From NCBI RefSeq assembly GCF_000212375.1, contig NC_015501.1, forward strand, positions 1,860,001 through 1,924,000: a DNA stretch of 64,000 nucleotides, written 5' to 3'. This document shows, one piece after another, positions 10,782 to 57,760 of the stretch. Every line of letters begins with the position of its first letter. Position 1 is the first letter of the stretch. Under the pieces are notes generated by a model. It was not told the origin of the DNA and searched no databases. It saw nothing but the letters and a program-made list of their open reading frames with translations. Made by a program: the position numbers and the translations under genes. The stretch is from Porphyromonas asaccharolytica DSM 20707. Its GTDB lineage: Bacteria > Bacteroidota > Bacteroidia > Bacteroidales > Porphyromonadaceae.

Positions 10782-11121
10782 GGCTAATTTCTACTTTGCG
10801 GTGCTGGGAGAAGTTTAGACTGACGTATTCTAATCAACGGAGACTATAAAACAGAATATCCACGTGGGAATTCTCAATTCTCCACGTGGATATTTTTTAT
10901 TCTCCACGTAGGTACGAAACGATTCCTCCGAAGTTTCATTTGATTCCTCCGAAGTTTCATTTCATCTCCACGTGGAGATTTTTTATTCTCCACGTGGAGA
11001 TTTGAGAATTTCCACGTGGGGATCTGCCCCTTCTAAAGGAAGATCGTATCGGAGCCTAAGAGATCCTGTCGATCACCTGTCAGTGCGGTCCCCTGTCAGG
11101 GCCTCAAAATAGAATTTAGCC
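10782..11121 (-). mobile_element. MITE-like 340-bp element, copy A
   Basis: The ends are inverted repeats: GGCTAATTTCTACTTTG at 10782 and, on the other strand, GGCTAAATTCTATTTTG ending at 11121. Inside are six CCACGTGG/CCACGTAG palindromes starting at 10860, 10882, 10904, 10968, 10990 and 11012, which gives steps of 22, 22, 64, 22 and 22. The 64-bp step holds two identical 21-bp direct repeats (10921-10941 and 10942-10962, core CCTCCGAAGTTTCATTT). It is the reverse complement of the copy at 32357-32696 and has exactly the same length. Flanks TGGCAT and TGACAT may be a decayed 6-bp target duplication. It fills the divergent promoter region between the methyltransferase and rpsP genes. No ORF is credible in it. 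Confidence 0.85.
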
Positions 11122-11181
11122 GTGACATGTGTAGGCAGATTGTGATTTCGCAGAGGTTATGGTGGAATGAAGATTTTTGCG

Positions 11182-11189
11182 TACCTTTG
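11182..11189 (+). promoter_or_regulatory. Promoter -7 element of rpsP
   Basis: TACCTTTG matches the consensus perfectly. It lies 64 bases before the ATG, leaving a leader of about 58 nt. Confidence 0.75.
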
Positions 11190-11252
11190 CACAGTTCGTA
11201 TGAGACGAAAGTTCTCACGGACATCTAAATCATTCAAATCTCAATATCAACA

Positions 11253-11846
11253 ATGGCAACTAAAATCAGACTACAAAGATTCGGTCGTCGTGGCTACCCC
11301 TTCTACCGTATCGTCATCGCTGATAGCAGGGCTCCACGGGATGGAAAGTTTATTGAGAGGATAGGTTCTTATAATCCGAACACTAATCCTGCTACAATAG
11401 ATTTGAAGTTTGACCGCGCTCTCTATTGGCTCAAGGTCGGTGCACAGCCTAGTGACACCGTACGTCGCATCCTCTCACGTGAGGGTGTCCTCCTTAAGAA
11501 GCACCTCGATGGTGGTGTCGCCAAGGGCGCATTCACACAGGAGGTCGCAGACCAGCGCTTTGAGGCATGGCTCACGAACAAGCAGCAGCTCCTCAAGGGA
11601 GTCGCAGAGCGTGACCAGCAGAAGGCTCAAGATATAGCTCAGAAGCAGCACGAGGCTGAGGAAGAGCAAAACAAGGAGCGTAGCAAGGCTCTAGAGGAGA
11701 AGAAAGCAGCCATCGAGCGCGAGAAGGCTGAGGCCGAAGCTGCTGCAAAGGCTGAAGCTGAGGCTAACGAGGAGGCTAACGCCACCGAGGAAGCACCCGC
11801 TGCTGAGGAGGCTCCTGCCACAGAAGAGGCTCCCGCTGCTGAGTAA
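11253..11846 (+). CDS. rpsP: 30S ribosomal protein S16 with long acidic C-terminal extension
   Basis: Residues 1-90 are a standard S16 ([49 protein letters not shown]). S16 binds 16S rRNA early in 30S assembly. Most bacterial S16 proteins have 80-90 residues, but this one has 197. It adds a charged helical region (residues about 90-165, rich in Lys/Glu/Gln) and an Ala/Glu-rich tail made of repeats close to [13 protein letters not shown]. Extended S16 proteins occur in Bacteroidetes. The gene has its own promoter and terminator. The role of the tail is unknown. Confidence 0.95.
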
Positions 11847-11928
11847 GCTGACAACTACACAACACCTCTACGACATATCTAGTCGTATCTACCATGATAC
11901 GTATCTATGTGTCATAACATCTATGAGG

Positions 11929-11967
11929 CCCAGACTGCATGACTTTGTGTGGTCTGGGTTTTTTTTT
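11929..11967 (+). terminator. Rho-independent terminator of rpsP
   Basis: CCCAGAC (11929-11935) pairs with GTCTGGG (11952-11958), followed by nine T residues. Confidence 0.85.
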
Positions 11968-12005
11968 GAGCAGACTGATCTACGAGACCGTCTTTCCCTC
12001 TCATC

Positions 12006-13250
12006 ATGACATCTCCACAACTACAATACCACACCACTGCCCAGGGACTACGTATCGTCTACTACCCTATTCCCAGCCAGGTCACCTATATAGGCTACAT
12101 GGTACAGACAGGCTCAGCTCAGGATCCGCAACCTTACCATGGACTGGCACACTGTACGGAGCACATGCTCTTTAAGGGGACGCATAAACGACACGCCCTA
12201 CACCTAGTGAATCGTGTCGAGGCGGTGGGTGCTGATCTCAACGCTTTCACTACCAAGGAGGATACAACCCTACACATAACCATCCCCTCACGCTATGCGC
12301 TCAGGGCCGTTCATCTGCTCACAGATATCGTGCTCAACAGCTACATACCGACCGAAGAGCTGAGCAAGGAGCAGGAGGTGATCATTGAGGAGATAGCTAG
12401 CTACCTAGATGCTCCAAGTGAGCGGATATATGATGAGTTTGAGGAGCTACTCTTTAGCGGCACGCCGCTAGCGCACAATATACTAGGTTCTGAGCAATCA
12501 GTCAGGCGTATCTCCTCGACAGTCGTACGGCGCTTTATGGATCAGTACTACCGCCCTGACAATATGGTGCTGGGCATCTGGGGCAAGATAGACTTTGACA
12601 AAGCGGTGGAGATGATCGAGCATCTATACAGCGAGCCACGAGTAGCTGCAGGAGATCCATTTAAAGTGCCAAAGGTCAAACCCACGACCACTCCCGAGCG
12701 GCTCATCGCTAAGACGCACCACTACCGCACCAACCAGTGCCACTGCATCATAGGAACACATGCTCCGAGCCTGCACAATCGTGAGCGCTACGCTATGACG
12801 CTCTTCAACAACTTCATCGGAGGTCCCGCCATCTCTTCCCAGCTGAACCTTCATCTGCGTGAAGAGCTGGGACTGGTTTACAGTGTCGAGGCGAATTACA
12901 CGCCCTACCTGAATGATGGCGTCTGGAACGTCTACCTCGGCACGGGTGGCGACACGCTACAACAAGCTGTGGAGGCAGTGCATCGCATCCTGGATCGCTA
13001 CGTCACCACGCCTATGAGTATGGAGCAGCTAGCCATCAGTAAGCAGCAGATCGTGGGGCAGCTACTCCTCGCCAACGATCAGCACGATAGCGAGCTCATC
13101 ACCATGCTCAAGAGCTACCTCTACTTCGGCAGAGTCAGTAGCGTCGCCGAGGTGGCAGAGCGCATACAGGCGATCACGCCTGAGGAGATCACCGAGACGG
13201 TCGGTCGCTACCTCACGAGAGCGCAGCGACATACGCTCATCTACAAGTAG
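12006..13250 (+). CDS. M16 family zinc peptidase (insulinase-like)
   Basis: A 414-residue single-chain M16 protein. The inverted zinc motif HCTEH (HxxEH) sits in GLAHCTEHMLFKGT near residue 45, and the downstream Glu ligand lies in QEVIIEEIASY. The second, inactive half includes LREELGLVYSVEANYTPY, the usual R/Y peptide-clamp region. There is no signal peptide, which fits a cytoplasmic processing-peptidase-like enzyme such as the YmxG group. It starts 38 bases after the rpsP terminator. Confidence 0.9.
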   Translation: MTSPQLQYHTTAQGLRIVYYPIPSQVTYIGYMVQTGSAQDPQPYHGLAHCTEHMLFKGTHKRHALHLVNRVEAVGADLNAFTTKEDTTLHITIPSRYALRAVHLLTDIVLNSYIPTEELSKEQEVIIEEIASYLDAPSERIYDEFEELLFSGTPLAHNILGSEQSVRRISSTVVRRFMDQYYRPDNMVLGIWGKIDFDKAVEMIEHLYSEPRVAAGDPFKVPKVKPTTTPERLIAKTHHYRTNQCHCIIGTHAPSLHNRERYAMTLFNNFIGGPAISSQLNLHLREELGLVYSVEANYTPYLNDGVWNVYLGTGGDTLQQAVEAVHRILDRYVTTPMSMEQLAISKQQIVGQLLLANDQHDSELITMLKSYLYFGRVSSVAEVAERIQAITPEEITETVGRYLTRAQRHTLIYK

Positions 13251-13319
13251 CAGAGCGATAAAGAAAGCAGTTACGCTCACTGAGTTCAAAAGGAAGTAAC
13301 CGTCAGGGGCTTTTTCATT

Positions 13320-13327
13320 ACCTTTGT
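13320..13327 (+). promoter_or_regulatory. Promoter -7 element of the plsC-LMW-PTP pair
   Basis: TACCTTTG lies 32 bases upstream of the ATG at 13360. Confidence 0.7.
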
Positions 13328-13359
13328 GAGCGAGATACAAGCACTGAGGCTCGTATGCT

Positions 13360-14145
13360 ATGGCCTCAGTTTGTGAGACAACCCCCTACTCCTCTATGCT
13401 ACTACGGATACTATACATTATATACATAGTCTTATTTGCGGCGCCCATCTATGCGGTGATAACCATCATCTTAGCACTTATTATGACGGTGGGATGCTTG
13501 CTAGGCTTTGGCAAGTTCTTTAGTTATTACCCAGGACTCATCTGGTCGTGGCTAGGACTGATACTATCCCTCTGTCCCGTCACCGTGCGAGGGCGTAAGA
13601 ACTACGACAAGAAGTCTGGTCCCTATGTCGTCATGGCAAACCACCAGGGAGCCTACGACATCTTCCTTCTCTACGGCTTCCTCGGCATCCCCTTCAAGTG
13701 GGTGATGAAGGAGTCGCTGCGGCGTGTCCCCTTCGTGGGCAAAGCGTGTGAGGTTGCGGGCTTTATCTTTGTCAACGGACATAGCATACAGAACATCCGC
13801 AACTCACTAGACGAAGCTAAGCGTTCGCTCGGTGATGGCTACTCGATCTTTATATTTCCTGAGGGCAGTCGTACTCGCACGGGACGTATGCAGCCTTTGA
13901 AAAAGGGTGGCTTCGTGATCGCCGATGAGCTAGACATCCCGATCATCCCTGTCTCCATCTCGGGCTCCTATGGCGTGATGCGCGCAGGCTCGTTCCTACC
14001 CCACTGGCGTCGCCTCTATCTAGATATACACCCACCTATCCACCCTCGTGATTATCGCTCTTCCGATCAGCCGATGCAAGATCTACGCGAAGGGGTCTAC
14101 CACACGATACAGCAAGGCATCCACGATGGCACAGAGCAACTCTAG
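13360..14145 (+). CDS. plsC: 1-acyl-sn-glycerol-3-phosphate acyltransferase (PlsC type)
   Basis: A 261-residue membrane acyltransferase. N-terminal transmembrane helices (residues about 13-60) are followed by the catalytic HxxxxD motif in NHQGAYD (near residue 94), and then FPEGSRTR, which binds the glycerol phosphate. It makes phosphatidic acid at the inner membrane. Another in-frame ATG at 13396 (MLLRIL) could be the true start. The end overlaps the start of the LMW-PTP gene by 20 bases. Confidence 0.9.
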   Translation: MASVCETTPYSSMLLRILYIIYIVLFAAPIYAVITIILALIMTVGCLLGFGKFFSYYPGLIWSWLGLILSLCPVTVRGRKNYDKKSGPYVVMANHQGAYDIFLLYGFLGIPFKWVMKESLRRVPFVGKACEVAGFIFVNGHSIQNIRNSLDEAKRSLGDGYSIFIFPEGSRTRTGRMQPLKKGGFVIADELDIPIIPVSISGSYGVMRAGSFLPHWRRLYLDIHPPIHPRDYRSSDQPMQDLREGVYHTIQQGIHDGTEQL

Positions 14146-14635
14146 TAGCAAGGCTCCTTACCGCATTCTCTTCGTCTGTCTAGGCAACATCTGTCGCTCG
14201 CCACTCGCAGAGGCTATTATGCGGCAACTCCTAGCCGAAGACCCCGCCAGCTCGTCTCAGATCGAAGTAGACTCGGCAGGCATCGGTGGATGGCATCAGG
14301 GAGAGCTAGCAGACCCACGTATGCGTGCCCATGCAGCACGGCGTGGCATCGAGATGACGCACCGTGCGAGGCAAATTAAGGATGGAGACTTTGAGACCTT
14401 TGACCAGATCATCGCTATGGACGATGGCAACTATGAGGCTCTGCGCGAGCTGGCTCCGACGCTAGAGCAGCAGAAGAAGGTCGTGCGTATGGCTGACTAC
14501 CTAGAGCAGATGCCGTGGGATCACATTCCCGATCCATACTACGGAGGTGCGTCGGGCTTTGAGCTCGTCCTAGATCTACTCACTGAGGGGTGTACCAATT
14601 TATATCATCGTTACGAGACGCAGAGCGATAAGTAA
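14126..14635 (+). CDS. Low-molecular-weight protein tyrosine phosphatase
   Basis: The P-loop VCLGNICRS (CX5R) stands about 17 residues from the ATG at 14126. This start is chosen because longer versions read through the plsC coding region. The DP loop (IPDPYYGG) near residue 135 carries the general acid. At 169 residues it has the usual family size. Such phosphatases act on phosphotyrosine proteins; in Bacteroidetes they are linked to capsule and community regulation (for example Ltp1 of P. gingivalis). Whether this is the Ltp1 orthologue is not settled. Confidence 0.9.
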   Translation: MAQSNSSSKAPYRILFVCLGNICRSPLAEAIMRQLLAEDPASSSQIEVDSAGIGGWHQGELADPRMRAHAARRGIEMTHRARQIKDGDFETFDQIIAMDDGNYEALRELAPTLEQQKKVVRMADYLEQMPWDHIPDPYYGGASGFELVLDLLTEGCTNLYHRYETQSDK

Positions 14636-14657
14636 GCGGGGGCAGCACTACTTTTCG

Positions 14658-14665
14658 TACTTTTG
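14658..14665 (+). promoter_or_regulatory. Promoter -7 element of the EptA-like pair
   Basis: TACTTTTG fits TAnnTTTG. Its position rules out the TTG at 14663 as a start and favours the ATG at 14711. Confidence 0.6.
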
Positions 14666-14710
14666 CGCTGGACTTATTACGACCTTGTTAACGAGCAATC
14701 TTTTATTCCG

Positions 14711-16474
14711 ATGTTTCTTAAGATAAAAAGGCTTCTCTCCATCTGTGGGGGCTATCTGAAGCAGTTGTTGGGGCGTATGTGTAGTATGCCTACTCTCTTT
14801 ACCTTCCTGACACTCCTGCAAGTGCTTATGGGGAGCTTAATGATACTGCACCTTCGCATGGAGATGCCTCTACTCCTTTGGCTGGGAGGCTATATCGCCG
14901 GCACTGCGATACTGATGACGCTCCCCGCCATCCTACCTAAACGATGGTGGCGCATCACTTGGACTAGCCTCATCGTACTGCTCTCGGCTGTACTATTTAT
15001 ATATGAGTACTATCTGCTCACCGAGCACGGCACGCTCCTGACGCAGACCGTCTTGCTACAGTACTACACGCCCTGGGCCGATGAGGTGTGTCGCTCGCTA
15101 CTACCATGGAGTATGCCGATGCACACGCTACTGGAGGCCATCGGGTTGCTCTGTGGCATCAGCCTTGTGACCTGGTTAACCAACAAGGGCTGGGGACTAC
15201 TCTTCATGATACTGCTACTACTTATCTCCGGTATACCGCATGCTACGCAGCTAAGCCCAATAGTGGCCGGAGGGATCTCCAATGAAGAGGCTTACACGCT
15301 CGCTCATGAGTACAATATGATGAGTCGTTACGTAGCTACCACGCTGGGAGTCTTTACCAATCAAAAGCGATACGACGAGATGGGGCAGAACTTATGGAAA
15401 AACACTCCGACCAACGTTCGCCTCATGCCTCAGCGTCAGCCGCACAATGTGGTGGTCATCATCGGCGAGTCTCTACGTCGCTTAGACATGCACTGCTACG
15501 GCTATCCGCTAGAGAATACGCCACGCCTAGACTCACTCGTCCAGGCTGGCTCACTAGTTCTCTACGATGATGTCGTCTGCCCTCAACCGAACACGCTCAC
15601 CTCGCTGCGACGCGTCCTCACCATACGAGGAGAGGACGAGCAAGCACCTTGGGATGCCACGACGACACTCCCTATCACCTTCTCCTCTGCTGGCTACAAG
15701 ACCTACTGGTGTAGCAATCAGGAGATGGCTGGAGACTGGATCGAAGAGGTGTCGCTCATAGCCTCCACGGCCGATAGCTCCTACTACACCGATGGGAGTA
15801 CCTCTAGTGCCTTGCACTGGAAAGCTGGACGGGTCAAGCACGATGAACTCATCCTCCCGCATTTGATCGTCTACCGACAGACCAGCTCACCTAATGGGAG
15901 TCTTCTCGTCGTAGCGCATCTGATGGGGAGCCATGCCTCCTTTGCCGATAGATACCCCAACGATCGCTTTAGTCGCTTTACGGCTAAGGACGTAAAGCAG
16001 ATAGAGCCTCGCCTCAGCTCAGGAGAGGCGCAAAACTCGGCTGAGTATATGAACTCAATCCTCTACAACGACTCCATCGTCTCCGAAATTATCAAATACT
16101 ATAGCCAGAGCTCTTCCATCGTGATCTATTTCTCGGATCATGCTATCTCTCGCTATGACAATCCTAAGGCTCCTACTCAAGCAGCACACGGAGTCTGCGA
16201 GAGCGCTCTGCAGATACCCTTTATGGTCTACATGTCCGATCAGTTCGCTGCAGAGAATCCCGACGTCCTACTCGCCGTACAGCGTGCTCGGTACAAGCCC
16301 TTCATGACCGACCTCTTCACCTCTTCACTCATGGGACTTATGGGCATCGAGTCAAACTATACCATCCCCCGCTTACAGCTATGGAGTCTATCGTACGATG
16401 CGACCCGTCCTAGATGTATCAAGGGCTTTGGCTCTGAGGTTACCTTCTCACCTAAGCATCCAGATCAGCTATGA
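14711..16474 (+). CDS. Phosphoethanolamine transferase-like (EptA/sulfatase superfamily) membrane protein
   Basis: A 587-residue protein with about five N-terminal membrane helices, followed by a periplasmic sulfatase-fold domain. HNVVVIIGESLRR has the metal-binding Glu, and PQPNTLTSLRR has Thr-295, the likely nucleophile. YFSDHAISRY has the metal ligands Asp-476 and His-477, and AAHGV gives a further His. This is the layout of EptA-type transferases, which add phosphoethanolamine to lipid A or other glycans. It is translationally coupled (ATGA) to a paralogue that lacks these residues. The acceptor is not known. Confidence 0.85.
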   Translation: MFLKIKRLLSICGGYLKQLLGRMCSMPTLFTFLTLLQVLMGSLMILHLRMEMPLLLWLGGYIAGTAILMTLPAILPKRWWRITWTSLIVLLSAVLFIYEYYLLTEHGTLLTQTVLLQYYTPWADEVCRSLLPWSMPMHTLLEAIGLLCGISLVTWLTNKGWGLLFMILLLLISGIPHATQLSPIVAGGISNEEAYTLAHEYNMMSRYVATTLGVFTNQKRYDEMGQNLWKNTPTNVRLMPQRQPHNVVVIIGESLRRLDMHCYGYPLENTPRLDSLVQAGSLVLYDDVVCPQPNTLTSLRRVLTIRGEDEQAPWDATTTLPITFSSAGYKTYWCSNQEMAGDWIEEVSLIASTADSSYYTDGSTSSALHWKAGRVKHDELILPHLIVYRQTSSPNGSLLVVAHLMGSHASFADRYPNDRFSRFTAKDVKQIEPRLSSGEAQNSAEYMNSILYNDSIVSEIIKYYSQSSSIVIYFSDHAISRYDNPKAPTQAAHGVCESALQIPFMVYMSDQFAAENPDVLLAVQRARYKPFMTDLFTSSLMGLMGIESNYTIPRLQLWSLSYDATRPRCIKGFGSEVTFSPKHPDQL

Positions 16475-18138
16475 GAAAAGCACTCTTACACTACCTCCAG
16501 GGAGTCAAAGCAAGGATTCCACAGCTAGTATGGCTACTGATTGCGATGCTAGCGATTTTGACGCTCAATAACCTGGTCATCAGAGGCCTGCTCTCTAGGA
16601 GTGCCACTTATCTATCTAGAGAGAATCTCCCCCTACTATGGGACACCCTCTGGATGGCTACGTTACTCTACATCATCCCCACTCTGATCCCCCATCGCAT
16701 CACACGTCGGGTGGTCCTCATCATCGAGCTGGTACTGATCAGTGCCATACATATCATGGATCTCTACCTCGTCAGTACCTATCAGATGCCTTACTGCGAT
16801 GCGATCGCTATCCCGATCTTTGCGACCAACCCTGGAGAGGCTAGCGGTTTTTTCAAGTCGCTACGACTGGAGATGCCCTTTATGCTCATCGAGGGAGTCA
16901 AGCTCCTAGTGGCTATCTTCCTACCGCTCGGCATCTCTTGGCTCATAAGTCGTACCAAGCGTACTAAAGAGCAGCCCACCCCTTGGGACAAGCGCATCCA
17001 ACGGTACAGCTCTACACTCCTCTTCATAGTAGTTCTCGTTGGCGCACACATACTCGGCATCAACTATCTGCGTCAGACGCGTATCGCTACCAGTGCAGGA
17101 GTCATACAGTACAATGCGCATGCACCTCTAGCTCGCCTTTACTTGAGCCATCGGGTGTTGCGTCATGATGCTAAGCGCTGTGCTCTTGACTATAGACCTC
17201 GGCAAGCGACTCCCCAAGAGGTAACCGTAGACTCACTCCTACCGCCGCACAATGTCGTGCTGGTCGTTGCTGAAAACATCTACCCGCATCTGATGCACTG
17301 CTACAATCCTATCGTCAATGACAATACACCTGTCATAGACTCGCTCCTACAGATGGGCTCTTTCATCAGGCTTGACAGCGTCTACAGTGCCTCTGACAAT
17401 GCGGCTCTAGCTGCTGCCTGGACATTCTCCCTCTGTCCTAAGGATAGCCCTAACAGTTGGGACACTTATCCCTCTATCTATAGTATCTTTCGTGCAGCAG
17501 GCTACGACACCTATTGGCTAGACAACACCCCGCGCATAGCACGTGGACTAGATGTCTACCCACAGCTAGCAGCCGACTGCGACGACCACTTCTTTACCAA
17601 TCTACGTGCAGATGATCAAGACTGGACCAGCAGAATTCCCTATGATGACGCGGTCCTTGACCAACTCAAGCAGCTAGAGAGTCAGTCTCGTCTCACAACC
17701 ATTCATCTCTTGGGAGCTCGCAGTAACATCTGGTGGCGTATCCCCGAGGAGTTCTGTAAGTACAATCGCCTGTCGGCAAACATTGACATAGATCTATCGG
17801 GCGATGCTCTAGACCACCTGGCTCAATACTACAACGTCGTCTACTACCAGGACGACCTACTCAAGCAACTCATCGCACACTACCAAGACACCCCCACGAT
17901 ACTTATCTATTGCAGCCCTGTAGGGGCCTATAGTGAGTGGCACCCTTACTCAGGCGATCAGGTGGCTCCCGAGACTAGAGGTCAGGTGCCTATGCTACTA
18001 TACCTCTCCCCTGCCATGCAGCGCATCTCTCCCACCCTACGAGATCAGTTGCTACAGCTTAATGCCGAGCGACACAACCTCAGCGACCTGCCCCAGCTAC
18101 TGATGCGTCTCTCTGGCATCAAGGTATCCCTATCGTAG
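16471..18138 (+). CDS. EptA-like paralogue lacking catalytic residues
   Basis: A 555-residue protein that aligns along its whole length with the preceding gene product: N-terminal membrane helices, then HNVVLVVAENIYP, HCYNPIVNDNTPVIDSLLQMGSF and FRAAGYDTYWLDN. The nucleophile Thr is replaced by Ala-311 (SDNAALAA), and the SDH metal site is replaced by Ser-Pro-Val (residues 482-484). The downstream His region reads APETRGQVP. Only the GES-equivalent Glu (AEN) remains. It therefore looks like a pseudoenzyme, perhaps a partner subunit or scaffold of the upstream transferase. The reading frame is intact, which argues for a retained function. Confidence 0.82.
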   Translation: MRKALLHYLQGVKARIPQLVWLLIAMLAILTLNNLVIRGLLSRSATYLSRENLPLLWDTLWMATLLYIIPTLIPHRITRRVVLIIELVLISAIHIMDLYLVSTYQMPYCDAIAIPIFATNPGEASGFFKSLRLEMPFMLIEGVKLLVAIFLPLGISWLISRTKRTKEQPTPWDKRIQRYSSTLLFIVVLVGAHILGINYLRQTRIATSAGVIQYNAHAPLARLYLSHRVLRHDAKRCALDYRPRQATPQEVTVDSLLPPHNVVLVVAENIYPHLMHCYNPIVNDNTPVIDSLLQMGSFIRLDSVYSASDNAALAAAWTFSLCPKDSPNSWDTYPSIYSIFRAAGYDTYWLDNTPRIARGLDVYPQLAADCDDHFFTNLRADDQDWTSRIPYDDAVLDQLKQLESQSRLTTIHLLGARSNIWWRIPEEFCKYNRLSANIDIDLSGDALDHLAQYYNVVYYQDDLLKQLIAHYQDTPTILIYCSPVGAYSEWHPYSGDQVAPETRGQVPMLLYLSPAMQRISPTLRDQLLQLNAERHNLSDLPQLLMRLSGIKVSLS

Positions 18139-18247
18139 CAAAACACTCTCATAGTTCCTCGCCCATCACTGATATACTCTGAAGTCTAGAGTATGCTCCT
18201 ACTCTTACAGACTTACAAATCTGTAGGACACAAAGTCCATAGTGCAA

Positions 18248-18297
18248 ACCTTACAGCTCGGCTCGTAAGGTGCTTTGTCCTCAAAGTGGTACCTTTG
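18248..18297 (+). promoter_or_regulatory. mazG promoter with upstream dyad
   Basis: The -7 element TACCTTTG (18290-18297) lies 21 bases before the mazG ATG. Upstream, ACCTTAC (18248-18254) and GTAAGGT (18265-18271) form a dyad. Nearby AGGACA/TGTCCT and CAAAGT copies could extend a larger fold. It could be the 3' hairpin of the EptA-like operon or an operator. Confidence 0.55.
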
Positions 18298-18318
18298 CAC
18301 TATAATAATAGACAAGCT

Positions 18319-19110: not shown

Positions 19111-19122
19111 TCTCGTCTAGCT

Positions 19123-21245: not shown

Positions 21246-21274
21246 CGATGCGCTCTAGAGTGGCGCAAAAGTTG

Positions 21275-21282
21275 TAGCTTTG
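21275..21282 (+). promoter_or_regulatory. Promoter -7 element of maeB
   Basis: TAGCTTTG fits TAnnTTTG. It leaves a leader of about 57 nt before the ATG at 21345. Confidence 0.65.
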
Positions 21283-21344
21283 TATGCGAGGTGAGGAGAG
21301 ATCCTTGCCACGAAGAACTATGTATCATACTATAAGATAGCATA

Positions 21345-23621: not shown

Positions 23622-23646
23622 TCCGTCGCGCCATACGACAATAAGA

Positions 23647-23679: not shown

Positions 23680-23680
23680 A

Positions 23681-23765: not shown

Positions 23766-23810
23766 CTAGCTTTATCAGACCAATCGCAAGATTGGGTGGA
23801 AGAGGAAGAC

Positions 23811-32356: not shown

Positions 32357-32696
32357 GGCTAATCCCTATTTTGAGGTGCTGAAAGGGGACCGCACTGACA
32401 GGTGATCGACAGGATCTCTTATGCCCCGATACGACTTTCCCTTAGAAGGGGTAAATCTCCACGTGGAGATTTATAAATCCCCACGGAGGAAATAAAAATT
32501 CTCCACGTGGAGACGAAATGAAACTTCGGAGGAATCAAATGAAACTTCGGAGGAATCGTTTCGTCCCTACGTGGAGAATAAAAAATATCCACGTGGAGAA
32601 TTGAGAATCTCCACGTGGATATTCTGTTCTATAGTCTCAGTTGATTAGAATAGGTCAGTCTAAATTTCTTCCAGCTCCTCAAAAGAGGAATAAGCC
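32357..32696 (+). mobile_element. MITE-like 340-bp element, copy B
   Basis: Terminal inverted repeats GGCTAATCCCTATTTTGAGG at 32357 and, on the other strand, GGCTTATTCCTCTTTTGAGG ending at 32696. Palindrome modules start at 32459, 32481 (CCACGGAG), 32503, 32567 (CTACGTGG), 32589 and 32611, the same 22-22-64-22-22 spacing as copy A. The tandem 21-bp repeats lie at 32516-32536 and 32537-32557 (AAATGAAACTTCGGAGG core). ACAGAT directly precedes the left end and recurs one base after the right end, a likely 6-bp target-site duplication. The element separates recO from the PepK-like gene. Confidence 0.88.
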
Positions 32697-44036: not shown

Positions 44037-44370
44037 AAGGGATTTTAGTTTCACCTAGGTGATGGAGGGAACCACTAACATGTGATAGGGATCTTTTATG
44101 CCACAATAGGCACTTGCCTCAGAAGGGGTAGATCCCCACGTGGAAATTTTCAAATCTCCACGTGGAGAATGAAAAATGCCTACGTAGGGACGAAATGAAA
44201 CTTCGGAGGAATCAAATGAAACTTCGGAGGAAATGATTCGCGCCTACGTGGAGAATAAAAAATATCCACGTGGGAAATCGAAAATCTCCACGTGGATATT
44301 CTGTTTTTATGGTCTCAGTTGATCAAAATACGCCGACCTCGAACCTTTTACCTCAAAATAGGAATTAAGC
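44037..44370 (+). mobile_element. MITE-like element, copy C
   Basis: Same orientation as copy B. Modules start at 44136, 44158, 44180 (CTACGTAG), 44244 (CTACGTGG), 44266 and 44288, keeping the 22-22-64-22-22 spacing despite many substitutions. The right terminal repeat (GCTTAATTCCTATTTTGAGG on the minus strand, ending at 44370) is good. The left end has decayed and lost about 3 bases. The second 21-bp repeat has a GGAAATGATTCG variant end. It sits directly behind the dxr terminator. Confidence 0.8.
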
Positions 44371-45572: not shown

Positions 45573-45604
45573 AGTGTGTAGTCTGCTTGAGAAAAGGAGT
45601 GGGC

Positions 45605-47453: not shown

Positions 47454-47497
47454 AAGCTAGTGTCGCAAGGGTAAGAAGTGAGATGTATCTGTATCAG

Positions 47498-48184: not shown

Positions 48185-48204
48185 TGTTGTAATCTGTCGT
48201 AAGT

Positions 48205-49572: not shown

Positions 49573-49631
49573 AGTGTATCGTATGTTAGGTTAGATAGGG
49601 TTCGTCCGTTAGCAGGGGCTTGAGCAAGAGT

Positions 49632-50639: not shown

Positions 50640-50696
50640 ATTGACTGTACCGTATACACGCCATTCCCTCTAACGAGAGAGATGGGTGAACTTAAA

Positions 50697-52436
50697 TTAT
50701 TTCGTAGACTCCTCGCCCACCCACTTGGATATTTCCTCCAGTGCAGGGATCTGCAAGCCTAACTTATACTTCTTATTGATATCCATCATCTGCTGCATCA
50801 CCTTGCCAGGAGCTTTGCCCGCAAGGTCTGCGACCGTGAGGTAGCCAGCCTTCTGCAAGAGTGGCACCCAAGTCTTGTCAATGCCAACGGCTTCGTAAGC
50901 CTCCTCCTTGTCACGCTTAGGCTGTATCTCAGGACGCATCTGTGGGAAGAGCAAGACCTCTTGAATACTCTCCTGACCCGTCAGGAGCATCACGAGGCGA
51001 TCCATACCGATACCCATACCAGATGTGGGGGGCATACCGAACTCTAGAGCGCGCAGGAAGTCGTGATCGATATACATCGCCTCATCGTCTCCACGCTCGC
51101 TCAGGCGTAGCTGATCCTCAAAGCGATGACGCTGATCTATCGGGTCGTTGAGCTCCGAATAAGCATTGGCCAGCTCCTTACCATTGACAAATAGCTCGAA
51201 GCGCTCTGTCAGATCGCTCCTATCGCGGTGCTCCTTAGTGAGCGGAGACATCGCCTTAGGATAGTCTATAATAAAGGTCGGCTGCACCAAGTGTGGCTCA
51301 GCGACTGCACCAAAGAGTTCGTCTATCAGCTTGCCGACACCCATCGTGTCATCGATCTCCACGCCCTTAGACTGGCACATCTTGCGTAGCTCAGCCTCGT
51401 CCATGCCATCGATGTTGACCCCGCCATACTCTTGGATAGCGTCGATCATCGTGAGGCGACGATAGGGAGGCTTAAACTCTATCGTGTGCTCCCCTACCTG
51501 AATAGTCGTAGAGCCTAGCACCTCCTGACAGATATGCTCGATCATCTGCTCCGTCATCTGCATCATCCAGCGGTAATCCTTGTAGGCTACATAGATCTCC
51601 ATACAGGTAAACTCAGGATTGTGCGTCCGGTCCATACCCTCATTGCGGAAGTTACGACTAAACTCGTAAACCCCCTCGAAGCCACCTACGATCAGTCTCT
51701 TGAGGTAAAGCTCATTGGCGATGCGTAAGTAGAGCGGTATGTCAAGCGCATTGTGATGAGTTACGAAGGGACGAGCCGCAGCACCACCAGGGATAGACTG
51801 CAGGACAGGCGTATCCACCTCTAGATAGCCACGCGCATTAAAGAAGTTGCGCATCGACTGGAAGATCTTCGTACGCTTGACGAAGATCCCCTTCACCTCA
51901 TCATTGACTATCAGGTCCACATAGCGACGGCGGTAACGTAGCTCAGGATCGGTAAAGCCATCGAAAACCTGATCATCCTTAGCCTTGACGATAGGGAGCG
52001 GACGCAAAGCCTTGCTCAGCAAGGTCAGTTCCTCAGCATGCACCGAGATCTCGCCCGTCTGGGTACGGAAGACAAAGCCCTTGACACCGACGATGTCGCC
52101 AATGTCGAGAAGCTTCTTAAAGAGCTTGTTGTATAGATCCTTATCCTCTCCTGGGCAGAGGTCATCACGAGTCACATAGACCTGTATACGTCCCGAGGTA
52201 TCTTGTAGCTCCATAAAGGAAGCCTTACCCATGATACGTCGGCTCATGACACGACCAGCGATGCTCACCTCCTGGCGAGGTGCCTCATCTTGATATTGGT
52301 CTTGTATCTCCTGAGCATGCGCCGTCACGACATACTCGGCTGCTGGATAAGGGTTGATGCCCATCTGACGTATCTCGTCTAGGCTGTTGCGACGTGCTAT
52401 CTCCTGGTCACTAAGTTCTAGTAAGTGTAAGTCCAT
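50697..52436 (-). CDS. lysS: Lysine--tRNA ligase (class II) with C-terminal extension
   Basis: A 579-residue class II LysRS from the ATG at 52436 (MDLHLLELSDQEIARRN). The OB-fold anticodon domain (VSIAGRVMSRRIMGKASFMELQD) is followed by motif 2 (FRNEGMDRTHNPEFTCMEIYVAY) and motif 3 (GMPPTSGMGIGMDRLVMLLT). The last 65 residues (WVPLLQKAGYLTVADLAGKAPGKVMQQMMDINKKYKLG) form a helical, HhH-like extension found in Bacteroidetes LysRS. First gene of the long operon ending at dxr. Confidence 0.95.
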   Translation of the reverse strand: MDLHLLELSDQEIARRNSLDEIRQMGINPYPAAEYVVTAHAQEIQDQYQDEAPRQEVSIAGRVMSRRIMGKASFMELQDTSGRIQVYVTRDDLCPGEDKDLYNKLFKKLLDIGDIVGVKGFVFRTQTGEISVHAEELTLLSKALRPLPIVKAKDDQVFDGFTDPELRYRRRYVDLIVNDEVKGIFVKRTKIFQSMRNFFNARGYLEVDTPVLQSIPGGAAARPFVTHHNALDIPLYLRIANELYLKRLIVGGFEGVYEFSRNFRNEGMDRTHNPEFTCMEIYVAYKDYRWMMQMTEQMIEHICQEVLGSTTIQVGEHTIEFKPPYRRLTMIDAIQEYGGVNIDGMDEAELRKMCQSKGVEIDDTMGVGKLIDELFGAVAEPHLVQPTFIIDYPKAMSPLTKEHRDRSDLTERFELFVNGKELANAYSELNDPIDQRHRFEDQLRLSERGDDEAMYIDHDFLRALEFGMPPTSGMGIGMDRLVMLLTGQESIQEVLLFPQMRPEIQPKRDKEEAYEAVGIDKTWVPLLQKAGYLTVADLAGKAPGKVMQQMMDINKKYKLGLQIPALEEISKWVGEESTK

Positions 52437-52581
52437 AACTATAGTTAAGTATAAAAACGCTTCCACCCGCTGAGCATACAGCAATAATTAGGTGGTAAAT
52501 ACCCATCCCGTCCTCCTCAGATCAGCTGGGGAGGAGCGATAGGCTCAAGCTAGCTGAGGCGTATCTGCAATACACCCTCTG

Positions 52582-52589
52582 CAAAAGTA
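52582..52589 (-). promoter_or_regulatory. Promoter -7 element of the lysS operon
   Basis: TACTTTTG on the minus strand fits TAnnTTTG. It implies a leader of about 140 nt before the lysS ATG. Confidence 0.55.
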
Positions 52590-52892
52590 CTCATTTTAGA
52601 CCTCACTACCAAAAGCCATCCTTCCCTAGATTCCGCGAGTCTCATTACAAGTCAGCTCAACGAACCAATGTGCGTCCTCACATATCTACCAAACCATTGT
52701 CGCTCATCATAATACGGGGCGAATCGTTTATCCCCATTCAAGCACAGACGAGGAAGCCTGGCGCCTTCCTTTTTTGGGGGGGGAAATGCTCAAACGTTCA
52801 AGGATTCTACTGCTTATTACCTCAACGAAGATCTTAGACTGTTTGGGCAACAACTCTCTAAGGACGAGACCAATTCATTCTTAAAAAGGGAG
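52590..52892. other. Intergenic stretch with weak hairpin and G8 tract
   Basis: I see no gene here. GGAAG/CTTCC (52752-52770) forms a weak hairpin followed by TTTTTT and then eight G residues (52776-52783). This may be a plus-strand terminator without an obvious gene before it, or the remains of something decayed. Confidence 0.4.
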
Positions 52893-53915
52893 CTACACTC
52901 CGATGCCGAGAGACTGGAGTATGAGGTAGGTCATATAAGCTACGTAGACGACGAGCAGTGCAATGCCCTCCTTGCGGCTGATCATAGCTCGTCCGAGGAC
53001 GTTGCTAAAGATAAAGAGGAGGAAGACAGCGACCAGCATCATCAGATAGTCCAGCAACTGTATACCTGCTGGTACCAGGGGCGTGATCGTGGCAGAGGCG
53101 CCGAGGATGAAGAGGATGTTGAAGATGCTGCTCCCCACGACGTTGCCGATGGCCAAGTCTGGCTGACGCTTGACGGCTGCCACGACAGATGTGGCTAGCT
53201 CTGGCAGTGAGGTGCCGATGGCTACGATGGTGAGTCCGATGATTGCTTCGCTTACACCCCACGAGCGTGCTATACTAGAGGCATTGTCTACGAATAGACG
53301 TCCACCGAAGACCAGTAGCGCGAGTCCCCCGATGACCTTAGCGATAGAGAGTAGCAGTGTCCTAGTTGCATGCTTTGCCTTAGACTTATCTAGATCCTCT
53401 TCTAGCGATGAGAGATCAGTCTCGGGTGCTTTTTCCTTAGCCGCAGACATGAAGGCTAGATAAAGGTAGAAGATGAGGAAGCAGAGGAGCACGATACCAT
53501 CGCCACGATCGATGATATTGCCCGAGAATCCTCCCGTGAGGAGATGGTCGCTCGCCATAACGAGACAGATGGCTGTGACCAGCATAGCTATCGGTATATC
53601 ACGCTTCATAGCATCGTGTGTCACACGGATCGGGTAGATCATAGCACTGACGCCTAGTATGAGGAGGATATTGGAGATGTTACTTCCCACCACATTGGCG
53701 ATGGCGATGTCTGGCTTGTTGGCTAGAGCCGAGGTGATGCTCACGACCAACTCAGGAGCTGAGGTACCAAAACCTACGATCGTAAGACCGATCACTAGTT
53801 GAGACACGCCTAGTCGCTCAGCGATCGTCACAGAGCCATTGGTAAGGAAGTTGGCCCCAGCTGTGATCATGACCAAGCCTAAGATGAGCAGTAAGAAGTA
53901 GAGTAGTATTGACAT
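52893..53915 (-). CDS. Calcium/sodium antiporter (CaCA family, YrbG-like)
   Basis: A 340-residue membrane protein from the ATG at 53915 (MSILLYFLLLILGLVMITAGANFLTNGS); the longer ORF overlaps the Gly-rich end of the TPM gene. Two inverted halves each carry the alpha-repeat: GFGTSAPELVVSITSALANKPDIAIANVVGSNISNIL and AIGTSLPELATSVVAAVKRQPDLAIGNVVGSSIFNIL, with G(T)SxPE and GN(V)VGSN signatures. About ten membrane helices are visible. It exchanges Ca2+ for Na+ at the inner membrane. Confidence 0.93.
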   Translation of the reverse strand: MSILLYFLLLILGLVMITAGANFLTNGSVTIAERLGVSQLVIGLTIVGFGTSAPELVVSITSALANKPDIAIANVVGSNISNILLILGVSAMIYPIRVTHDAMKRDIPIAMLVTAICLVMASDHLLTGGFSGNIIDRGDGIVLLCFLIFYLYLAFMSAAKEKAPETDLSSLEEDLDKSKAKHATRTLLLSIAKVIGGLALLVFGGRLFVDNASSIARSWGVSEAIIGLTIVAIGTSLPELATSVVAAVKRQPDLAIGNVVGSSIFNILFILGASATITPLVPAGIQLLDYLMMLVAVFLLFIFSNVLGRAMISRKEGIALLVVYVAYMTYLILQSLGIGV

Positions 53916-53946
53916 AATGCCTAAGATATAAAGGTGTAACGCACGT

Positions 53947-55239
53947 TTACCAGCCCCCAGTGGCACCACCGCCACCGCCCGAACCACCGCCAAAGCCTCC
54001 GCCGCCGAAACCTCCGCCGAAGCCACCTCCGAAGCCACCTCGTCCGAGAGAGCTACCGATGATACCGCCTAATATAGCTCCACCTAGTGCAGAGTCATTT
54101 TCTTTATAGACAGTCTCGTCCTCGTGGTGGTCTTGATCGCAGTAGAGACAGTGATACTTCTGACGATGGATGTAGGCTATGCGCCGATCAGTAGAGCGCA
54201 GACGGAGTGTCCCGATGCGCTGCATGGCATAGGTTCCGCAGTGCGGACAACGCTTGTAGGGGGAGTTACCGGCTACCTCGCCATAACGCTCTACAGCACC
54301 ACAGTTATCACACTGCTTGACTAGGTAGTGCACACTACCGAGTCGCTCCTCCAGTTGCTGTGCTGGCGTCAGGAGCGATAGCTTAGCCGTATCAGAGAGA
54401 CGCTGCAACTGATCTTGATGGCATGTATGACAGCGGAGAGCCTCCTGAGAGAGCCGATGGCGCAAGATCGCATAAAGAGCGAGGAGTACGACAATGGCTC
54501 CCGCTATCAAGAGGAAGCTTCCACCGATCATTAAGATCAAAGCTATGAATAGGAAGCCTAGGATCTGCCTGTTGAGTCGCTTGATCCGCTGCTCTGGAGC
54601 TGTCTGCTCGTCTTTGTAAGAGACCAGCATGACGACACAGAGGATCAGCGCCAAGAGGACCACCAATCCATTGAACACGCCATCCGCCACTTGATCCTCC
54701 TCGGCACGATCTGTGCGAGTCGCCCCCTCGTAGTTTGCCGTGATCGTCTCTTGTATCGCCTGCACGCCAGAGAGGATGCCTGTACTATAGTCTCCACGCT
54801 TGAAGTGTGGTGCCATACGATGAGCTATGATCTGACTACAGAGGGCATCCGGTAGCACGCCCTCTAGTCCGTAGCCCGTCTCTATGCGTATCTGACGACT
54901 ATCTAGCGAGATGAGCATGACAAAGCCACTATTGTCTATCTTAGAGCCCACGCCCCAGCCACGGAGTATCTCCCGTGCGAGATCCTCGATAGAGCCACTC
55001 TGACCGATGGAGGGAAGGGTGATGACGACTCCCTCCACGCCATGCGTCTGGCGCATGCTTAGGATCGTCTCGTTGATTCGTTGTTGCGCTTCGGGCTCGA
55101 TGATGTGCGCTACGTCGGAGACAAACTGCGTGCTGTCCTGTAGCTGTACGTTGGGAATATCCTCCCACGAGACAGCCTTCTGAGCAGGTAGTACCCAAAA
55201 TGATAGCAGTAGTCCGAGTAAGAGTAAAGTGCGCTTCAT
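53947..55239 (-). CDS. TPM domain protein with zinc-ribbon cysteines and Gly-rich end
   Basis: A 430-residue protein with a signal peptide (LLLLGLLLSFWVLPAQ). A TPM (YgcG) domain covers residues about 30-165 (QFVSDVAHIIEPEAQQRINETI, RQIRIETGYGLEGVLPDALCSQI), followed by two membrane segments (VVLLALILCVVMLVS; FLFIALILMIGGSFLLIAGAIVVLLALYAIL). The cytoplasmic part has several CxxC pairs (CHTC, CDNC, CPHC, CLYC) that look like zinc ribbons. The end is GGFGGGFGGG-type Gly-rich. TPM proteins often pair with LemA, as here; links to membrane-protein quality control are inferred. Confidence 0.87.
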   Translation of the reverse strand: MKRTLLLLGLLLSFWVLPAQKAVSWEDIPNVQLQDSTQFVSDVAHIIEPEAQQRINETILSMRQTHGVEGVVITLPSIGQSGSIEDLAREILRGWGVGSKIDNSGFVMLISLDSRQIRIETGYGLEGVLPDALCSQIIAHRMAPHFKRGDYSTGILSGVQAIQETITANYEGATRTDRAEEDQVADGVFNGLVVLLALILCVVMLVSYKDEQTAPEQRIKRLNRQILGFLFIALILMIGGSFLLIAGAIVVLLALYAILRHRLSQEALRCHTCHQDQLQRLSDTAKLSLLTPAQQLEERLGSVHYLVKQCDNCGAVERYGEVAGNSPYKRCPHCGTYAMQRIGTLRLRSTDRRIAYIHRQKYHCLYCDQDHHEDETVYKENDSALGGAILGGIIGSSLGRGGFGGGFGGGFGGGGFGGGSGGGGGATGGW

Positions 55240-55254
55240 GGGGGAGTCTAGAGG

Positions 55255-55345
55255 TTAGAAATTAGAGGTTAGAGATTAGAGGTTAGAGAGAGATGAGGGC
55301 TAGGATCACTAGTGCCACTAGTGCCACTAGAGGCTCTAGTGAAGT
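55255..55345. repeat. Low-complexity TTAGAG-type repeat plus ACTAGTGCC repeats
   Basis: TTAGAAATTAGAGGTTAGAG-like units (55255-55288) are followed by three ACTAGTGCC-like units (55310-55335). It fills the gap between the LemA and TPM genes. A similar TCTAATCTCTAA stretch occurs at 3650-3683. Confidence 0.6.
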
Positions 55346-55370
55346 CCTATCCCTCTACCTCTAATAACAA

Positions 55371-55991
55371 CTAAAACTTTACTTGAGGGGCTTGCTCCGC
55401 ACCAGCCTCAGCCTGGAAGTAAGGACGCTGGCGGAAGCCAAAGATACCGGCGCAGATATTCGTCGGGAAGTGACGTATCTTCGTATTGTACTGCTGTGCC
55501 TGGTTGTTAAAGTCCATACGGGCCGTCGTGATACGGTTTTCCGTACCCTCTAGTTGAGCCTGTAGCTGACGGAAGTTTTCGTCTGCCTTGAGCTCGGGGT
55601 AACGCTCCACGACAACCATCAGTTTGCTAAGCGCACTAGTTAGGTCTCCCTGAGCTTGCTGGAATTGATTGAGTTGCTCTTGAGTCATTCCCTCGCCAGA
55701 TGGGACGATGGGCTGTGAAGCCTTAGCGCGGGCGTTGATCACTCCCTCGAGGGTCTCGCGCTCATGAGAGGCGTAGCCCTTGACCGTCTCCACAAGATTG
55801 GGGATTAGGTCGGCACGGCGCTGGTATTGGTTCTCCACTTGGCTCCACGAGGTATTGACCTGCTCATCTAGTACCACGATCGAGTTATACTGTCCCACGC
55901 CCCAGAAGACAAGGAGCAGTACGACCGCCACGATGATAATTGTCGTTGTCAGACCACGACGAGACTTGGGGGCTGTAGCTTGATTTGTCAT
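55371..55991 (-). CDS. LemA family protein
   Basis: A 206-residue protein from the ATG at 55991 (MTNQATAPKSRRG). One N-terminal membrane helix (TTTIIIVAVVLLLVFWGVGQYN) is followed by the LemA helical domain: NTSWSQVENQYQRRADLIPNLVETVKGYASHE, LKADENFRQLQAQLEGTENRI and YNTKIRHFPTNI. LemA proteins sit in the membrane and pair with TPM proteins. The longer ORF reaches into pyrI and is not the likely start. Confidence 0.93.
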   Translation of the reverse strand: MTNQATAPKSRRGLTTTIIIVAVVLLLVFWGVGQYNSIVVLDEQVNTSWSQVENQYQRRADLIPNLVETVKGYASHERETLEGVINARAKASQPIVPSGEGMTQEQLNQFQQAQGDLTSALSKLMVVVERYPELKADENFRQLQAQLEGTENRITTARMDFNNQAQQYNTKIRHFPTNICAGIFGFRQRPYFQAEAGAEQAPQVKF

Positions 55992-56029
55992 AGTAGTATT
56001 AAATATTTGTTTGTTAGTAAGCTTGTTGA

Positions 56030-56515
56030 TTAGAGTAGCTCGATGCGATCCTCGGTGACCTTGCGTCCACAGTAGTGACAGCATAGTACCTCATGCTCAG
56101 CGTCAATGAGGTGAAAGTGCGTGTGCATAGGCTCATTATTCGTAATGCATTTAGCGTTAGGACACTTAACAAAGCCAATGATCTCCTCTGGGAGGTGTAG
56201 CGTCCGCTTGTCCACCACCTCGTAGTCCTTAATGATATTGATATGTACATCAGGAGCGATGAGTGCTATGCGGCTCGCCTCCTCATCGGATAGCATCCGT
56301 CCGGAGATCTTGATGATCCCCTTCTTGCCTAGATAGTGGCTATCTAAGTTGTTGCCGATGGTGATAGGCTCCTCCATATCCTCGAGCTGTAGGAGATGGG
56401 CTATCTTAAAGAGCTTCTTGGGGGGTATATGATCTATCACGGTACCATTGCAGATGGCAGTGACCAGCATGCCCTCTTGCTGCTTGCTTAGTGCGTCTTG
56501 AGTCTTAGCTTTCAT
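56030..56515 (-). CDS. pyrI: Aspartate carbamoyltransferase regulatory subunit
   Basis: A 161-residue PyrI that lets CTP and ATP control PyrB. The N-terminal nucleotide-binding domain (VTAICNGTVIDHIPPKKLFKI, ITIGNNLDSHYLGKKGIIKI) is followed by a zinc domain with CPNAKC and CHYC, which holds it to the catalytic subunit. It lies 9 bases after pyrB, as in many bacteria. Confidence 0.95.
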   Translation of the reverse strand: MKAKTQDALSKQQEGMLVTAICNGTVIDHIPPKKLFKIAHLLQLEDMEEPITIGNNLDSHYLGKKGIIKISGRMLSDEEASRIALIAPDVHINIIKDYEVVDKRTLHLPEEIIGFVKCPNAKCITNNEPMHTHFHLIDAEHEVLCCHYCGRKVTEDRIELL

Positions 56516-56524
56516 AGTGTACAG

Positions 56525-57442
56525 TTATTTATCAACATCTATACCGAGTACCTCGCAGAGTATCGACTGACGTATGTAGAGTCCATTCTGAGCTTGGCGG
56601 AAGTACTCCGCCTTAGGACTGCTATCTACATCGGTCGCGATCTCATTGACACGGGGCAGCGGGTGGAGGATGCGTAGATTGTCCTTGGTGCCTTGTAGCA
56701 TCTCCTTATTGAGTATGTAGACATCCTTGACACGCTCATACTCCTCCATATCAGTAAAGCGCTCTCGCTGCACCCTAGTCATATAGAGTATATCAGCATC
56801 GGCAATTACCTCAGGGGTAAAGAGAGAAGTCTCCTCATAGCGTAGATGGTGCTCATCGCAATACTGTCTGTACTCCTCGGGAAGTCGCAGCTCAGGCGGT
56901 GCGACAAAGGTAAAACGTGGTGAGAAGAAGCGCATCCCCTCTATGAGCGAGTGGATCGTACGTCCGAAGCGCAGGTCACCCACCATCACGATGTGTAGAT
57001 CCTTGAGAGTACCCTGTGTAGAGCGGATTGTGTAGAGATCGAGGAGCGTCTGCGAGGGGTGCTGATTGGCACCATCACCGGCGTTAACGATCGGCACGGG
57101 TGAGACCTCCGTAGCATAGAGAGCGGCACCCTCCAGGTAGTGCCGCATGATGATCACGTCGGCATAGTTAGAGACGATGAGTAGAGTGTCTTTCAGCGAC
57201 TCACCCTTCGTCGAGCTACTAGACTTAGGATCGGAGAATCCGATGACTCGTCCGCCCAACCTATTGACCGCCGTCTCAAAGCTCAGTCGGGTACGCGTCG
57301 ACGGTTCGAAAAACAAGGTGGCACCCACCATCCCATCCATTAGATGGCGATTAGGATTGGCCTCAAAGAGTGCAGCACGATCCAAGATACGTAGTATATC
57401 TTGCTCATCGCACTGCTCGATAGATACGATATGCTTCATCAT
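56525..57442 (-). CDS. pyrB: Aspartate carbamoyltransferase catalytic subunit
   Basis: A 305-residue ATCase that joins carbamoyl phosphate and aspartate in pyrimidine synthesis. Motifs are [13 protein letters not shown] (carbamoyl phosphate), [28 protein letters not shown] and [10 protein letters not shown]. The start may be the second ATG (57439). With pyrI it forms the allosteric class B enzyme. Confidence 0.95.
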
Positions 57443-57470
57443 AAGGCACAGACTATATTCATTTCACCCG

Positions 57471-57478
57471 TAAAGGTA
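57471..57478 (-). promoter_or_regulatory. Promoter -7 element of pyrBI
   Basis: TACCTTTA on the minus strand, one base off the consensus, 28 bases before the ATG. Confidence 0.5.
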
Positions 57479-57562
57479 CAAAAAAGGGACAGACTACAGA
57501 GGAGACAGGTCAAGAGTGATGTGATTTTAATCGATCATCGCAGGAGACTCTCCTATGCATTT

Positions 57563-57760
57563 GTCGGAGGAAACGATATCCACGTGGATATTTGGAAATT
57601 TCCACGTGGATATTTGGGAATCTCCACGTGAAGAAAAACTATTCTCCACGTGGATGTCAAATGAAACTTCGGAGGAATCAAATGAAACTTCGGAGGAATC
57701 GTTTCGTCCCCACGTGGAGAATAAAAAATAGCCACCTGAATATTTTGTTTTTCCTCGGTG
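57563..57760 (+). mobile_element. MITE-like element, truncated variant copy D
   Basis: Modules start at 57580, 57602, 57624, 57646, 57710 and 57732 (CCACCTGA): steps of 22, 22, 22, 64 and 22. The left array thus has four modules instead of three, and the right array is decayed after the second. The tandem 21-bp repeats (57659-57679 and 57680-57700) are identical to those of copy B. The terminal repeats are not recognisable. A run of eight G (57774-57781) follows. It occupies the divergent region between pyrB and the GNAT-like gene. Confidence 0.78.

Follow-up and report, generated by a model that had tools for sequence, protein, structure and literature searches.

The stretch analysed here, which we call the window, comprises 64,000 nucleotides of the Porphyromonas asaccharolytica DSM 20707 chromosome (contig NC_015501.1, positions 1,860,001 to 1,924,000; window position equals genome position minus 1,860,000). 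It contains four copies, named A to D, of a dispersed repeat built on the motif CCACGTGG. The window contains 17 occurrences of this motif, compared with 0.68 expected and with none of 100 shuffles reaching 17, and every occurrence falls within copies A–D. The modules of copy A start at 10860, 10882, 10904 (CCACGTAG), 10968, 10990 and 11012, giving steps of 22-22-64-22-22 bp, and copies B and C are arranged alike, some of their modules being degenerate. Within the 64-bp step lie two 21-bp repeats, which match at 100% in A, B and C (1.9 copies) as well as in D. The first-pass annotation had described this layout for A, B and C and had treated D as a variant; the pattern positions bear out both descriptions, with D carrying an extra module along with its degenerate modules 5 and 6. 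Copy A is inverted relative to the other three. Copies A and B end in terminal inverted repeats (TIRs) close to GGCTAATTYYTATTTTGAGGTGCTG, with 1–3 mismatches per end, and these ends are of the type found on a resident ISL3-family insertion sequence (IS). The features are as follows, with the form bounded by two TIRs labeled as resembling a miniature inverted-repeat transposable element (MITE).

10782..11121, minus strand (canonical orientation): copy A, full MITE-like form, 340 bp between the outer TIR ends, with ISL3-type TIRs at both ends
Genome positions 1870782-1870806, plus strand (2 mismatches), and 1871097-1871121, minus strand (3 mismatches): TIRs of copy A, from the TIR search
10855..11023, minus strand: core of copy A, six 22-bp modules around two 21-bp repeats, from pattern and profile
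10857..10892, minus strand: module 5/6 hairpin of copy A, the covarying helix, placed from alignment columns 132-167
32357..32696, plus strand: copy B, full MITE-like form, 340 bp, with TIRs at 32357-32381 and 32672-32696; only its ends match the IS
32455..32623, plus strand: core of copy B, from pattern and profile
32516..32557, plus strand: central pair of copy B, identical 21-bp repeats, from the repeat search
32582..32625, minus strand: module 5/6 hairpin of copy B, terminator-like, with an 18-bp stem and a T-rich tail; weaker on the plus strand (32584-32623)
44132..44300, plus strand: core of copy C, flanking arms degenerate, from pattern and profile
57598..57765, plus strand: core of copy D, without ISL3-type ends and with modules 5 and 6 degenerate, from pattern, TIR search and profile
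57580-57587: extra module of copy D, from the pattern scan of that copy

No TIR match within 3 mismatches was found at copy C, where a remnant of one TIR lies near 44338-44362 (by eye only). All four copies are located between the larger reading frames, in line with the annotation's statement that every copy is intergenic. No reading frame of 80 aa or more was found in copies A and B, and a 105-aa frame (57553-57870) that overlaps copy D through its repeats is taken as spurious.

The genome that holds the window, G000, is a single contig of 2,186,370 bases. A profile built from stretches fetched around motif clusters outside the window, used at E up to 1e-3, locates the family at 129 or more places, 112 of them near full length (54 on the plus strand, 58 on the minus strand); past 1.1 Mb this inventory is based mainly on the central repeat, and further copies are possible. 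There are 199 pairs of CCACGTGG in G000 with a gap of 8-20 bases, and in 198 of these the gap is exactly 14, which corresponds to the 22-bp step; the reversed-pattern control gives 0. The near-full copies have a mean pairwise identity of 78%, yet 105 of the 112 are free of indels, and two of the remaining seven have gained exactly 21 bases. The pair pattern is present in 5 of 26 genomes of the genus, with 199, 68, 6, 3 and 263 pairs, the last count belonging to G025, a related genome with a median protein identity to G000 of 93% for hits. It is also found in 2 of 393 genomes drawn from the order, both from Porphyromonas. A scan of named genomes using the short motif returned, among the 80 loci listed, many single matches in unrelated bacteria, while recurrent loci, among the matches listed, occur in Porphyromonas uenonis and an uncultured Porphyromonas. 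The dispersed family proposed in the first-pass annotation is thus upheld by whole-genome and genus searches, and copies A–D most likely belong to a family of non-autonomous mobile elements that has a structured core and is restricted to one clade. A phage or plasmid origin was rejected, as copy B, used as query, found no match in the phage or the plasmid collection; 74 viral stretches hold a CCACGTGG pair, mostly one pair each with a gap varying from 12 to 16. Membership in a known structured RNA family of Rfam 15 was likewise rejected for copy B, the only copy searched, whose top score of 25.9 bits falls below the gathering scores of 88 and 100.

The TIR of copies A and B also bounds six resident 1658-bp IS units in G000, each of which has an 8-bp target duplication and which differ from one another by 0 to a few bases. 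The transposase matches DDE_Tnp_ISL3 (E=1.6e-34) and is encoded, as read in one IS copy, in two overlapping frames with ISAon1-like halves. Only the outer 20-27 bases of copies A and B correspond to this IS, the other matches, of 8-13 bases, being at chance level. Target duplications were scored only in copies carrying both TIRs. Among 15 such elements, the 8-bp flanks agree at 8/8 positions in three, at 7/8 in two and at 6/8 in three, where the chance of agreement at 6/8 or better is 0.4% per element. Since the TIRs are held in common with a resident IS and sibling copies show 8-bp duplications, A/B-type copies look, from their ends and flanks, like MITEs of the ISL3-family IS. The MITE-like character suggested by the annotation therefore gains a candidate parent in these six copies.

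The core is not confined to this vehicle. The G000 places divide into 26 with an ISL3-type end, 22 with flanks of a second type, 21 that adjoin a heptamer array only and 60 with no recognised vehicle. Of the 51 near-full copies sampled in G025, 39 have another left flank in common, a composite vehicle, and the composite flanks that were printed continue into heptamer arrays and further inverted repeats. Because part of the G000 copies have ISL3-type ends and a different composite is present in G025, the core occurs in at least two vehicles. Judged by eye in 14 printed G025 flanks (L335-L394), the composite has at its borders copies of a short inverted-repeat element that ends in CAGGGCTGACGCATTATA and apparently belongs to another MITE family. 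The heptamer arrays (TTAGAGG/TTAGAGA) give 181 plus-strand and 197 minus-strand matches genome-wide, compared with 62 and 53 for the reversed pattern; they often adjoin the repeat core, and one lies in the window at 55249-55289.

Inheritance and turnover are both present at the sites common to the two species. On 60 sampled G025 stretches, every one of which bears an element (so that rates of site sharing are biased), 13 G000 elements share both neighbor genes with an element, and some of these pairs align through the element itself. At two shared sites, 322867 and 696786, the orientation of the element relative to the genes is reversed between G000 and G025. The elements also lie next to other insertions, as sampled at element-bearing loci only. 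An IS that looks IS3-like by eye, its frames measuring 138 and 360 aa from stop to stop, starts at 7 places (near 961.6 kb, 1.331, 1.568, 1.678 and 1.810 Mb in G000, and at L347 and L388 in G025), and at 5 of the 7 its start follows a CCACGTGG-type module by no more than a few bases. Another junction sequence is found at 4 places (L341, L343, L366 and L369), two directly after a module and one inside the central repeat.

Copies of the family avoid each other along the chromosome. The coefficient of variation (CV) of the gaps between 122 G000 elements is 0.496, whereas an intergenic-restricted null, in which the window's own gene pattern (16 gaps of at least 100 bases) is tiled, gives 0.957 ± 0.070 and never falls below 0.742 in 2000 placements. 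For 124 places, the observed CV of 0.515 compares with 0.99 ± 0.09 under uniform random placement. Only 8 pairs of G000 copies lie within 8 kb of each other against 54 expected, while from 12 kb on the pair counts scatter about the random value, a combination that indicates an exclusion zone rather than a lattice. The same holds in G025, where the 89 of 98 places that lie below 1.745 Mb give a gap CV of 0.62 against 0.98 ± 0.10 at random (0 of 5000). Gaps shorter than 8 kb are rare for both relative orientations: 3/70 same-direction and 5/52 opposite gaps in G000 (difference p=0.28), and 3/47 and 5/41, respectively, in G025; random placement would put 33% of gaps below 8 kb in G025 and ~36% in G000. 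Neighbors within about 8 kb are therefore strongly under-represented in two species and in both orientations.

A comparison of the vehicle classes in G000 shows that the avoidance reaches across most of them. ISL3-type and solo copies form 1 pair within 8 kb against 8.2 expected, and solo copies form 2 pairs among themselves against 18.8; taken alone, second-type versus solo (p=0.13) and ISL3-type versus second-type (p=0.10) are non-significant. The largest G000 gap is 44 kb, and hard-core simulations with 7, 8 or 9 kb exclusion keep the largest gap that small with p of 0.016, 0.03 and 0.052, the 9 kb exclusion being the best fit to the CV. The six copies of the ISL3 IS lie 1.7, 3.6, 6.6, 7.4, 8.0 and 16 kb from the nearest element. 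As a control, we used the heptamer arrays on the plus strand of the first megabase: the 37 arrays among the matches listed have a CV of 0.61 (p=0.0005), but 12 of the 37 adjoin an element and the control is consequently not independent. The 25 arrays that are not beside an element have a CV of 0.81 (p=0.21), which is distinguishable neither from random nor from equally thinned elements. The heptamer repeat thus hints at self-avoidance too, and this weighs against a special role for the core. Element orientation follows GC skew in G025 (0-1.745 Mb), with 38 plus and 9 minus in the positive half and 17 plus and 25 minus in the negative half (Fisher p=1.6e-4); in G000 the direction is the same without reaching significance (32 plus/26 minus and 29 plus/35 minus, p=0.36).

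In a model derived from copy B, three hairpins can form within the 170-bp core, which consists of six 22-bp modules plus two 21-bp repeats. The RNA fold predicted for 32453-32626 has an energy of -87.5 kcal/mol, compared with -39.3 ± 4.4 for shuffles (z -11), and the opposite strand is similar. We then looked for covariation in 86 of the 112 near-full G000 copies, those gap-free over 168 columns, by block-shuffling one arm in each of 21 pairings (15 between modules and 6 within one). The pairing of module 5 with module 6 stands out, with 86.3% paired where 80.8% would be expected (z=8.5, ahead of all other pairings, the next being near z=3), and neither module covaries internally (z -1.0 and -1.8). 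Along this helix 59 cells have changed on both sides, compared with 20.3 ± 3.3 in shuffled alignments, of which 0 of 500 reach 59, and with 3 to 19 in slid-register controls. The module 5-6 hairpin has compensatory changes, then, and the folded form put forward in the first-pass annotation is to this extent supported. Wobble pairs on the canonical strand of the alignment number 73 for G-U and 47 for A-C, which does not settle the strand. A general role as a terminator receives no consistent support from the orientation of neighbor genes and the terminator scan of A–D. Among the 120 cases with neighbors on both sides, 80 have a left-hand gene (in canonical orientation) that points away from the element (p=3e-4, several tests having been made), and divergent gaps containing a G000 element (45) outnumber convergent ones (18).

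The annotation had also read the exact 22-bp spacing as a sign of selection on phasing, and this claim is not supported. A near-perfect 22-bp step is no proof of selection, because common descent suffices unless indels are frequent, and indels in the core are no rarer than in either of two controls. In 39 young G025 copies, the core has a ratio of indels to substitutions of 3/395, and the non-palindromic flanks have ratios of 2/457 (left) and 0/129 (right). In seven comparisons of the same site between species, the ratio is 9/168 for the core and 17/214 for intergenic DNA elsewhere (p=0.42). The distance between modules 2 and 4 is itself variable, as a third 21-bp repeat replaces module 3 in 43 of 51 near-full G025 copies (three central repeats occur in 2 of 105 G000 copies) and 45 of the 51 fall one base short of the model. 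These data, whose controls cover young copies and same-site pairs, give no support to selection on 22-bp phasing, which may still act on the old, diverged copies.

The reading that we favor, with a probability of roughly two in three, is that of a non-autonomous mobile family, in part ISL3 MITEs, in which near copies are lost by recombination or prevented from arising. The core would pass between vehicles and stay behind as old solo copies, and a new copy near an old one would be lost by recombination between the two, or would be prevented. The module 5-6 hairpin may matter as RNA or as single-stranded DNA, for example by stopping transcription or protecting RNA between genes. Several findings weigh against this. 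An ISL3-type end is present at only 26 of the 129 places, so that the family as a whole does not consist of ISL3 MITEs, and the 60 places lacking a recognised vehicle leave the mobility of the solo form as something that we infer. Seven of the 15 two-TIR copies, A and B included, have no good in-register 8-bp match, and the flanks of A and B match at 6/8 only if shifted by one base. The covariation of helix 5-6 could also arise, free of selection, by template-switch correction of imperfect palindromes. Among A–D the hairpin scores as terminator-like only in copy B, and in 53 of 120 cases the right-hand gene is directed towards the element, a gene context with no terminator signal.

Other explanations account for parts of the same evidence. 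Target immunity is known for Mu, Tn3 and Tn7, and a factor bound to the element could likewise block a second insertion within about 8 kb; the sharp exclusion zone with no clear orientation preference in G000 and G025 is what this would produce. It seems to us unlikely nonetheless, since exclusion spans copies with different ends, for which immunity would have to act through the core, and five of the six ISL3 IS copies lie 1.7-8.0 kb from an element, with the sixth at 16 kb. The core might instead be a chromosome-organising node, either a binding array or a supercoil-absorbing cruciform, whose roughly 10-25 kb spacing is kept by selection. Consistent with such a node are the even spacing in two species with only partly common insertion sites, the repulsion between copies that have only the core in common (ISL3-type with solo, solo with solo), a largest gap smaller than most of the 7-9 kb hard-core simulations give, and the orientation along GC skew in G025. 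The idea is improbable given that no distance is preferred beyond the exclusion zone, that the orientation bias in G000 is non-significant, that 21 of 26 genomes of the genus are without the repeat and that the heptamer family also looks evenly spaced. It is quite improbable, too, that the core is a domesticated chromosome-spacing element, in which phased palindromes and a conserved hairpin together form a nodal point in chromosome folding, copies stay roughly 10-25 kb apart in any vehicle and close neighbors are excluded.

The individual modules might also be phased protein-binding sites, their 22-bp spacing being kept by selection as the first-pass annotation proposed. The exact step in 198 of 199 pairs and the indel-free state of 105 near-full copies at 78% identity fit this view, as does a weak covariation within the dyads of modules 2 and 3 (z about 3). 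The indel controls reveal no extra constraint, though, and modules 5 and 6 show covariation between the two of them but none internally, which is unexpected for separate dimer sites and favors a fold-back hairpin over separate palindromic protein sites; we regard phased sites as quite doubtful. Least probable is a system of repetitive extragenic palindromes (REPs) or bacterial interspersed mosaic elements (BIMEs) moved by a REP-associated tyrosine transposase (RAYT). High copy number and intergenic palindromic modules would suit it, and there are Y1 transposase matches in G000 (2) and in the element-bearing genome G023 (2, one below the cut-off). No Y1_Tnp match is present in G025, with its 263 pairs, or in G021 and G024, all of which bear elements, and element-free G016 has one; with a cognate RAYT present in G000 and G023 and absent from G025, G021 and G024, we rejected mobilisation of this kind. 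The two Y1 (RAYT-like) genes of G000, at 377361-377705 and 387168-387515, are 10 kb apart.

Dispersed repeats of bacteria are usually viewed as random passengers, and here more than 100 copies are far more even than chance in two species. Since this evenness is seen in two species whose sites are only partly shared, the general question of immunity, recombination loss or a chromosome role becomes testable. The presence of one core in different mobile vehicles also amounts to a natural experiment on the features that let a hairpin module spread. Were the spacing-element reading true, the trait under selection in this dispersed bacterial repeat would be its genome-wide spacing.

The closest published relative in form is BrickBuilt of P. 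gingivalis, described as an intergenic MITE with a 22-23 bp internal tandem repeat and long predicted stem-loops, an IS5-like TIR GAGACCTTTGCA, a 23-nt unit AGAYCATARTATCCTCTCRTRTG and 19 copies of variable repeat number in ATCC 33277 (PMC4596501). The two have in common the genus, the intergenic MITE form, repeats of 22-23 bp and stem-loops; unlike BrickBuilt as presented there, the family described here has a module set that is nearly fixed within G000, ISL3 as its recognised vehicle and at least 129 places. Allowing up to 3 mismatches, the BrickBuilt unit was found neither in the window nor in any of 184 loci, and its TIR has two 1-mismatch matches in the window (9728 and 49380), neither of them at A–D. 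Of the two relationships that the annotation had considered, a relative of BrickBuilt or a separate family, the sequence comparison supports the latter, and membership in BrickBuilt is rejected.

More broadly, the A/B-type copies conform to MITEs as outlined in a review (PMC10969869), being short, non-coding and intergenic, with the ends of a resident IS and, in part of the copies, a target duplication of the same length. They share the TIR and 8-bp duplication of the ISAon1-like ISL3-family IS but differ in their interior. What sets the family apart from MITEs generally, to the extent that the same source covers them, is a core common to several vehicles and to copies with none, together with self-avoiding spacing; the words 'evenly', 'immunity' and 'ISL3' were not found in the main text of that review. 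Similarity to REPs and BIMEs, as portrayed in PMC2817692 and PMC12306157, lies in more than 100 intergenic palindromic modules and regular spacing within the array, and the difference lies in having no consistent RAYT link here. The REPs of E. coli are reported to show no clear clustering or periodicity along the chromosome (PMC12306157). The IS starts beside modules resemble the IS elements reported to target REPs (PMC1525189). A search of full-text literature, mostly without subscription journals, listed no paper recognisable as an account of this family or of such spacing.

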